From: Aromatoleum toluclasticum ATCC 700605
GTDB lineage: Bacteria; Pseudomonadota; Gammaproteobacteria; Burkholderiales; Rhodocyclaceae
Reading direction: 5' to 3'
Assembly: GCF_000378245.1 (NCBI RefSeq)
Contig: NZ_KB899491.1
Coordinates: 124,001-188,000, forward strand
Length of the DNA: 64,000 nucleotides
Both the position numbers and the translations under genes were made by a program. The notes under the pieces were generated by a model that made no database searches, had not been told where the DNA came from, and was given only the letters and a program-made list of their open reading frames with translations. Numbering within the stretch: the first letter of the stretch is position 1; each line of letters opens with the position of its first letter. Positions 12,430-13,599 of this stretch are shown piece by piece.

Positions 12430-13599
12430 ATGGCTAAAGGCAAGTTTGAGCGGACGAAACCGCACGTAAACGTTGGGACGATCGGCCACGTTGACCATGG
12501 CAAGACGACCCTGACCGCAGCGATCACGACGATCCTGTCGTCGAAGTTCGGCGGCGAGGCGAAGGCCTACGACCAGATCGACGCGGCGCCCGAAGAGAAG
12601 GCGCGCGGCATCACGATCAACACCGCGCACGTCGAGTACGAAACGGCGGCCCGTCACTACGCCCACGTCGACTGCCCGGGCCACGCCGACTATGTGAAGA
12701 ACATGATCACCGGCGCCGCGCAGATGGACGGCGCGATCCTGGTCGTGTCGGCTGCTGACGGCCCGATGCCGCAGACGCGCGAGCACATCCTGCTTGCCCG
12801 TCAGGTCGGCGTGCCGTACATCATCGTGTTCATGAACAAGTGCGACATGGTCGACGACGAGGAGCTGCTTGAGCTCGTCGAGATGGAAGTGCGCGAGCTG
12901 CTGTCGAAGTACGACTTCCCGGGCGACGACATCCCCATCGTCAAGGGTTCGGCGCTGAAGGCGATCGAAGGCGACAAGGGTGACCTGGGCGAAGGCGCCA
13001 TCATGAAGCTGGCCGAGGCGCTCGACAGCTACATCCCGACGCCCGAGCGTGCCATCGACAAGCCTTTTCTGCTGCCGATCGAAGACGTGTTCTCGATCTC
13101 GGGTCGCGGCACCGTCGTGACCGGTCGTGTCGAGCGCGGCATCGTCAAGGTCGGCGAGGAAGTCGAGATTGTCGGCATCAAGCCCACGGTCAAGACCATC
13201 TGCACCGGCGCTTTTTGTCGCCAGGCAGGCGACAACGTCGGCGTGCTGCTGCGCGGCACCAAGCGTGAAGACGTCGAGCGTGGTCAGGTCCTGTGCAAGC
13301 CGGGCTCGATCAAGCCGCACACCCACTTCACGGGCGAAGTGTACGTGCTGTCGAAGGAAGAGGGTGGCCGTCATACCCCGTTCTTCAACAACTACCGTCC
13401 GCAGTTCTACTTCCGTACCACCGACGTGACCGGTTCGATCGTGCTGCCGGAAGGCACCGAGATGGTCATGCCGGGCGACAATGTGTCGATCACGGTCAAG
13501 CTGCTGGCCCCGATCGCCATGGAAGAAGGTCTGCGTTTCGCGATCCGCGAAGGCGGTCGCACCGTTGGCGCCGGCGTCGTCGCCAAGATCATCGAGTAA
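12430..13599 (+). CDS. tuf: Elongation factor Tu with a 7-residue shortening in domain 2
   Basis: 389 residues against the usual 396. The GTPase domain is normal (GHVDHGKT P-loop at 19-26, DCPGH, NKCD). The C-terminal domain is normal and ends [14 protein letters not shown]. The difference lies in domain 2. Where EF-Tu proteins read [21 protein letters not shown], this one reads [14 protein letters not shown] (residues 258-270, bases 13,201-13,239). Eleven residues are replaced by four, an in-frame loss of 21 nt. The missing strand-helix holds the conserved Glu and Phe that line the aminoacyl/A76 pocket. Flanking sequence is perfectly conserved, so either this copy has a real lesion or the base sequence has a local error. 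Betaproteobacteria usually carry a second tuf upstream of secE-nusG, outside this window. Confidence 0.96.

Follow-up and report, generated by a model that had tools for sequence, protein, structure and literature searches.

Ordinary bacterial EF-Tu, as captured by the models TIGR00485 and NF009372, carries in its domain II a segment with Glu259, Phe261, and Arg262 (E. coli numbering), and we take Phe261 to be a residue of the aminoacyl-tRNA pocket. According to the excerpted text of PMC9071432, Glu259 and Arg262 contact the 3' acceptor region of aminoacyl-tRNA, and an excerpt of PMC5574714 describes EF-Tu as an essential protein. Another paper considered as a source for Phe261 (PMC6681230) proved irrelevant, as its Phe261 belongs to a tRNA synthetase. 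Besides ordinary EF-Tu, the closest described system for the locus reported here is the repeat-induced mis-join of draft assemblies.

The window analyzed here is a stretch of 64,000 nucleotides from Aromatoleum toluclasticum ATCC 700605, and its tuf product resembles ordinary EF-Tu over its entire length. Residues 1-389 match the models far above cut-off, with a score of 730.9 bits against the TIGR00485 equivalog cut-off of 522.4 and profile positions 1-394 of 394 covered. The name EF-Tu comes from NCBIfam, where positions 1-396 of a 396-position model were matched, and the same-genus proteins matched show 95-99% identity to the window protein. The difference from ordinary EF-Tu is that 11 residues, V258-G268, are swapped for 4 in both assembled copies of the gene.

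Results

Both assembled tuf genes carry a scar at the same point

The sequence-only reading of this DNA had described an EF-Tu of 389 residues with a shortened conserved segment, which translation of the open reading frame and alignment to the relative G002 confirmed; tuf products in relatives are 395-396 aa long. The same reading called the change a 7-residue in-frame loss. The net change is indeed -21 nt, but it is not a plain deletion: in the alignment with G002, the 10 nt of CTTTTTGTCG take the place of 31 nt, and 4 residues that of 11 (Table 1). The flanks of this scar are nearly identical to G002; within the displayed part of the alignment there are no mismatches on the left and one on the right, 7 nt past the filler. 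The extent of the replaced segment was counted on the 7bbn alignment, and the missing part includes Glu259, Phe261, and Arg262.

Table 1. Coordinates of the window, its tuf gene, and the other features discussed (n..n, numbering of the window)
Feature	Position	Strand	Remarks
Window	G000:C1:124001-188000		own genome, contig C1
tuf (EF-Tu)	12430..13599	+	between fusA and rpsJ; 389 aa as assembled
10-nt filler CTTTTTGTCG (scar)	13211..13220	+	stands for 31 nt of conserved coding sequence
Codons G-AFCR-QAG across the scar	13207..13230	+	counterpart of E. coli V258-G268 gone
Second tuf	G000:C1:119989-121155 (L002:1501-2667)		outside the window; 389 aa; filler AACCAAAAAA, translated as EPKN
16S gene at the start of C9	L095:1-104		within the first 103 positions of the gene
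5S at the start of C11	L097:126-239		
5S at the end of C3	L142:366-479		
EF-Tu of a Truepera MAG	L044:5102-6310		normal length

Locating the second tuf and comparing it with the first, a check that the earlier reading had proposed, was decisive, although the second copy is not normal and has a matching scar. It lies on the same contig, 16.4 kb upstream of the window copy, with its start 4.0 kb ahead of the window, and across the scar it reads CTG-EPKN-QAGDNVG where the window copy has AFCR. The two copies share both breakpoints, the net change of -21 nt, and the length of the filler. The fillers themselves, CTTTTTGTCG and AACCAAAAAA, differ at 10 of 10 positions. Copy against copy, there are 18 differences in 1170 nt: the filler takes up 10 of them, at consecutive positions 782-791, and the remaining 8 are scattered (positions 9, 12, 381, 441, 468, 489, 711, and 837) and all synonymous. 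An identical position in each copy, together with nonhomologous junction letters, is the pattern that marks a repeat artefact.

Outside the scar, neither gene shows decay. Set against nine relative copies from seven genomes, the two genes show differences at 55-83 of the 1157 sites compared. At tuf positions 9 and 12, the bases specific to each locus agree with the same locus in G002, and from this comparison the 5' ends of the copies, at least, look correctly placed. The readable assembly yielded no third tuf, the next-best matches there reaching 36% identity at most, and DNA for EMFRKLL plus a following Asp or Glu, with 2 mismatches allowed, occurs nowhere in the readable own genome. Both of these negatives refer to the assembly outside contigs C39-C46, each of which is shorter than 3 kb and all N. 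As a positive control, the EMFRKLL pattern recovered both tuf copies with 0 mismatches in each of G002 and G009.

The relative tuf loci read have the normal segment

We searched for tuf in 31 genomes, the own genome and 30 relatives, and found it at E 1e-150 or better in 24. Related tuf genes had also been proposed as a check, and all 28 of the relative loci that were read contain the normal segment: 12 residues lie between CTG and AGDN in each, against 5 in the two own copies, a difference that is not due to chance. One 12-residue sequence is shared by 27 of these loci, and the remaining locus has another. A further 14 matches in relatives, for which lengths alone were taken, span 1185-1188 nt. 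Six relatives assembled as single contigs (G002, G009, G011, G012, G022, and G025) have two full-length tuf matches each. Seven of the 30 relatives (G010, G017, G018, G024, G026, G029, and G030) gave no tuf match with the threshold relaxed to E 1e-40; of the seven, five are at least 98% complete, and small contigs outside the searched sequence may carry the gene. G016 has tuf only as two partial pieces, on two contigs.

A wider scan for short forms was run with the pattern TGCACCGGN-N{3,33}-GCNGGYGANAAYGTNGG over genome_contigs, which the tool describes as holding 84,980 species. The pattern sees only genes with TGC ACC GG at the left edge, and the own genome possibly lies outside the collection. 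None of the 8 loci returned is a shortened EF-Tu. At seven of them, tblastn with normal EF-Tu found nothing at the match site, giving weak matches elsewhere or none, and the eighth, from a Truepera MAG, is an EF-Tu of normal length (VEMHRKTLGQG) that the pattern had matched out of frame. The idea that functional EF-Tu proteins share the short form thus found no example among the 28 relative loci or the 8 scan matches. In its own right, the Truepera protein has His at the position of E. coli Phe261, a natural substitution in the pocket.

Repeats and breaks in the draft assembly

In a megablast self-comparison of C1:1-448000 (the contig has 654,221 positions), the tuf pair was the only repeat of at least 150 bp found, a nearly identical 1.17-kb sequence with copies that start 16.4 kb apart. 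This part of the contig contains 0 N, so a simple scaffold gap cannot be seen. The G+C content of the fillers is 6 of 20 positions for both together, in a stretch of 66% G+C (binomial P about 0.001), and one of them has 8 A in 10 letters, which speaks against evenly random letters.

Contig ends were compared using the starts of 40 of the 46 contigs (8 are N), the ends of C1-C7, and the entire sequences of C34-C38. Several end pieces share about 276-307 or 376 nt with one another, at 98.9-100% identity. Among the other matches, some cover all 600 nt fetched, two pairs cover 322-441 nt at 92-95%, and one covers 34 nt. Because the overlaps vary, with some pairs at 600 nt or more, there is no single overlap length that would give the read length. 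The starts of C6 and C20 (L092/L106), C5 and C31 (L091/L111), and C30 and C34 (L110/L114) are the same over 600 nt at 99.8-100% identity; these shared starts are longer repeats or duplicated pieces.

Among 12 end pieces scanned for rRNA genes, a 16S gene was found at the start of C9 and 5S at the start of C11 and the end of C3 (Table 1). As these contigs end in or beside rRNA genes, those rRNA operons were not assembled through. The readable own genome lacks the 515F site of 16S, which is present in each of three relatives (G002, G003, and G009). A 16S family search of the own genome gave no match, with the same search positive in only 9 of 14 controls, and an Rfam scan of the 13 smallest own contigs, 8 of them all N, gave none either; for 16S, the 515F site and the contig ends were given the weight instead. 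The tuf scars lie inside a long repeat of the kind that this assembly struggles to cross; that reads failed at the tuf repeat itself, we infer.

Further scars were also sought in single-copy sequence. Comparing C1:1-448000 with 360 kb of G002 gave 1673 short blocks, each flanked by near-exact 30-nt anchors, and 18 of these appear as rows with a net length change of at least 3 nt. The two tuf scars account for three of the rows; judged by eye, the remaining 15 resemble insertions, tandem changes, or diverged stretches. Gap runs of at least 6 nt numbered 102, with overlapping alignments counted twice; 12 places were viewed in addition to the two tuf scars.

Discussion

Taken from the sequence comparisons, it is very probable that the tuf lesion is an assembly artefact, and the organism would almost certainly make ordinary full-length EF-Tu from both genes. 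The domain II segment with Glu259, Phe261, and Arg262, the one expected feature of an EF-Tu that both assembled copies lack, is probably missing because the assembled sequence is wrong. That the local sequence might be in error had been raised by the sequence-only reading, and this suggestion is well supported by the matching scars with unrelated fillers and by the normal relatives. Also in its favor are the lack of DNA for the segment elsewhere in the readable own genome, the low G+C content of the fillers, the missing 515F site, the intact remainder of both genes, and the frequent absence or fragmentation of tuf in related drafts. The draft assembly had trouble with repeats like the tuf pair, and the left and right flanks were probably joined at the same point inside each copy, with the join bridged by 10 meaningless bases and 31 real bases lost per copy. 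The bridging letters could have been written during gap closing from poor reads or laid over a 10-N gap. A gap of 10 N is a common assembly convention, and each filler is exactly 10 nt.

The locus resembles a repeat-induced mis-join in that the scars occupy matching positions in the two copies of the only repeat of at least 150 bp found in the 448 kb compared, that the fillers are unrelated, and that contigs elsewhere end at repeats, but it differs in that the gap holds letters rather than N. Other observations do not sit easily with an artefact. Both copies keep the reading frame despite the net change, which would happen by chance about one time in three given one shared join length. In addition, the contig crosses other tuf runs that are identical between the copies, of 368, 221, and 333 nt, scar-free, and the repeat contains longer identity runs than the one that holds the scar (between positions 711 and 837, about 146 nt with the normal segment). 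The lack of N in C1:1-448000 and the seemingly correct placement of the 5' ends count on the same side. Even so, the tuf copies of Salmonella convert each other, as the excerpted text of PMC5485169 describes, so a single lesion that had spread between copies would leave an identical filler in both. Two independent lesions, on the other hand, are not expected to share both ends. No simple biological history therefore fits, and identical breakpoints with unrelated fillers are what a repeat-limited assembly join would leave.

The best surviving alternative, though a highly improbable one, is that the lesion is real in both genes and the organism has two EF-Tu proteins with a shortened, remodelled 3'-end pocket (AFCR and EPKN), selected, for example, by an antibiotic or a toxin with its binding site on this surface. 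The reading frame is kept in both copies, which otherwise differ from each other only synonymously and remain close to relatives, and such selection is conceivable given that a CdiA toxin domain binds domain II around Glu259 in the excerpt of PMC9071432. However, the shared breakpoints and unrelated fillers suit neither gene conversion nor independent events, all cellular EF-Tu would lose residues of the aminoacyl-tRNA pocket, the sole EF-Tu among the 8 short-form scan matches was of normal length and matched out of frame, and the G+C content of the fillers is atypical. It is just as hard to credit that 4-residue substitutes, different in each copy, serve translation, with this part of the pocket dispensable or rebuilt.

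Still less probable is the earlier proposal that only the window copy is degenerating or specialized, with its partner supplying normal EF-Tu. E. coli does grow, at reduced fitness, when tufA is disrupted and tufB is left intact, according to an excerpt of PMC5371648. Here, both copies are altered, with identical breakpoints, unrelated fillers, and otherwise only synonymous differences, which contradicts the proposal unless the second copy alone was misassembled, and in the readable assembly we found no third tuf to supply the normal protein. Least probable of all is that both genes were cut by a nuclease in a single cell line and rejoined by end joining, which left the fillers: end-joining scars do combine a deletion with a short untemplated filler, but two such repairs would not be expected to agree in both endpoints and in filler length, and both essential copies would have been hit.

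Loss of the segment from both copies would remove Glu259 and Arg262 from all EF-Tu in the cell and leave no normal EF-Tu, and a living organism with both copies as assembled is therefore unlikely, which is an argument and not a proof. If the lesion were true, it would overturn what is held to be essential in the EF-Tu pocket. If it is an assembly artefact, as we favor, it illustrates that a conserved repeat gene can bear an in-frame, stop-free scar and yet pass family models. Those who use EF-Tu as a marker should expect losses such as those among the relatives in drafts, unless the gene sits on small contigs outside the search. Comparing the two copies within one genome reveals scars of this type even without reads.
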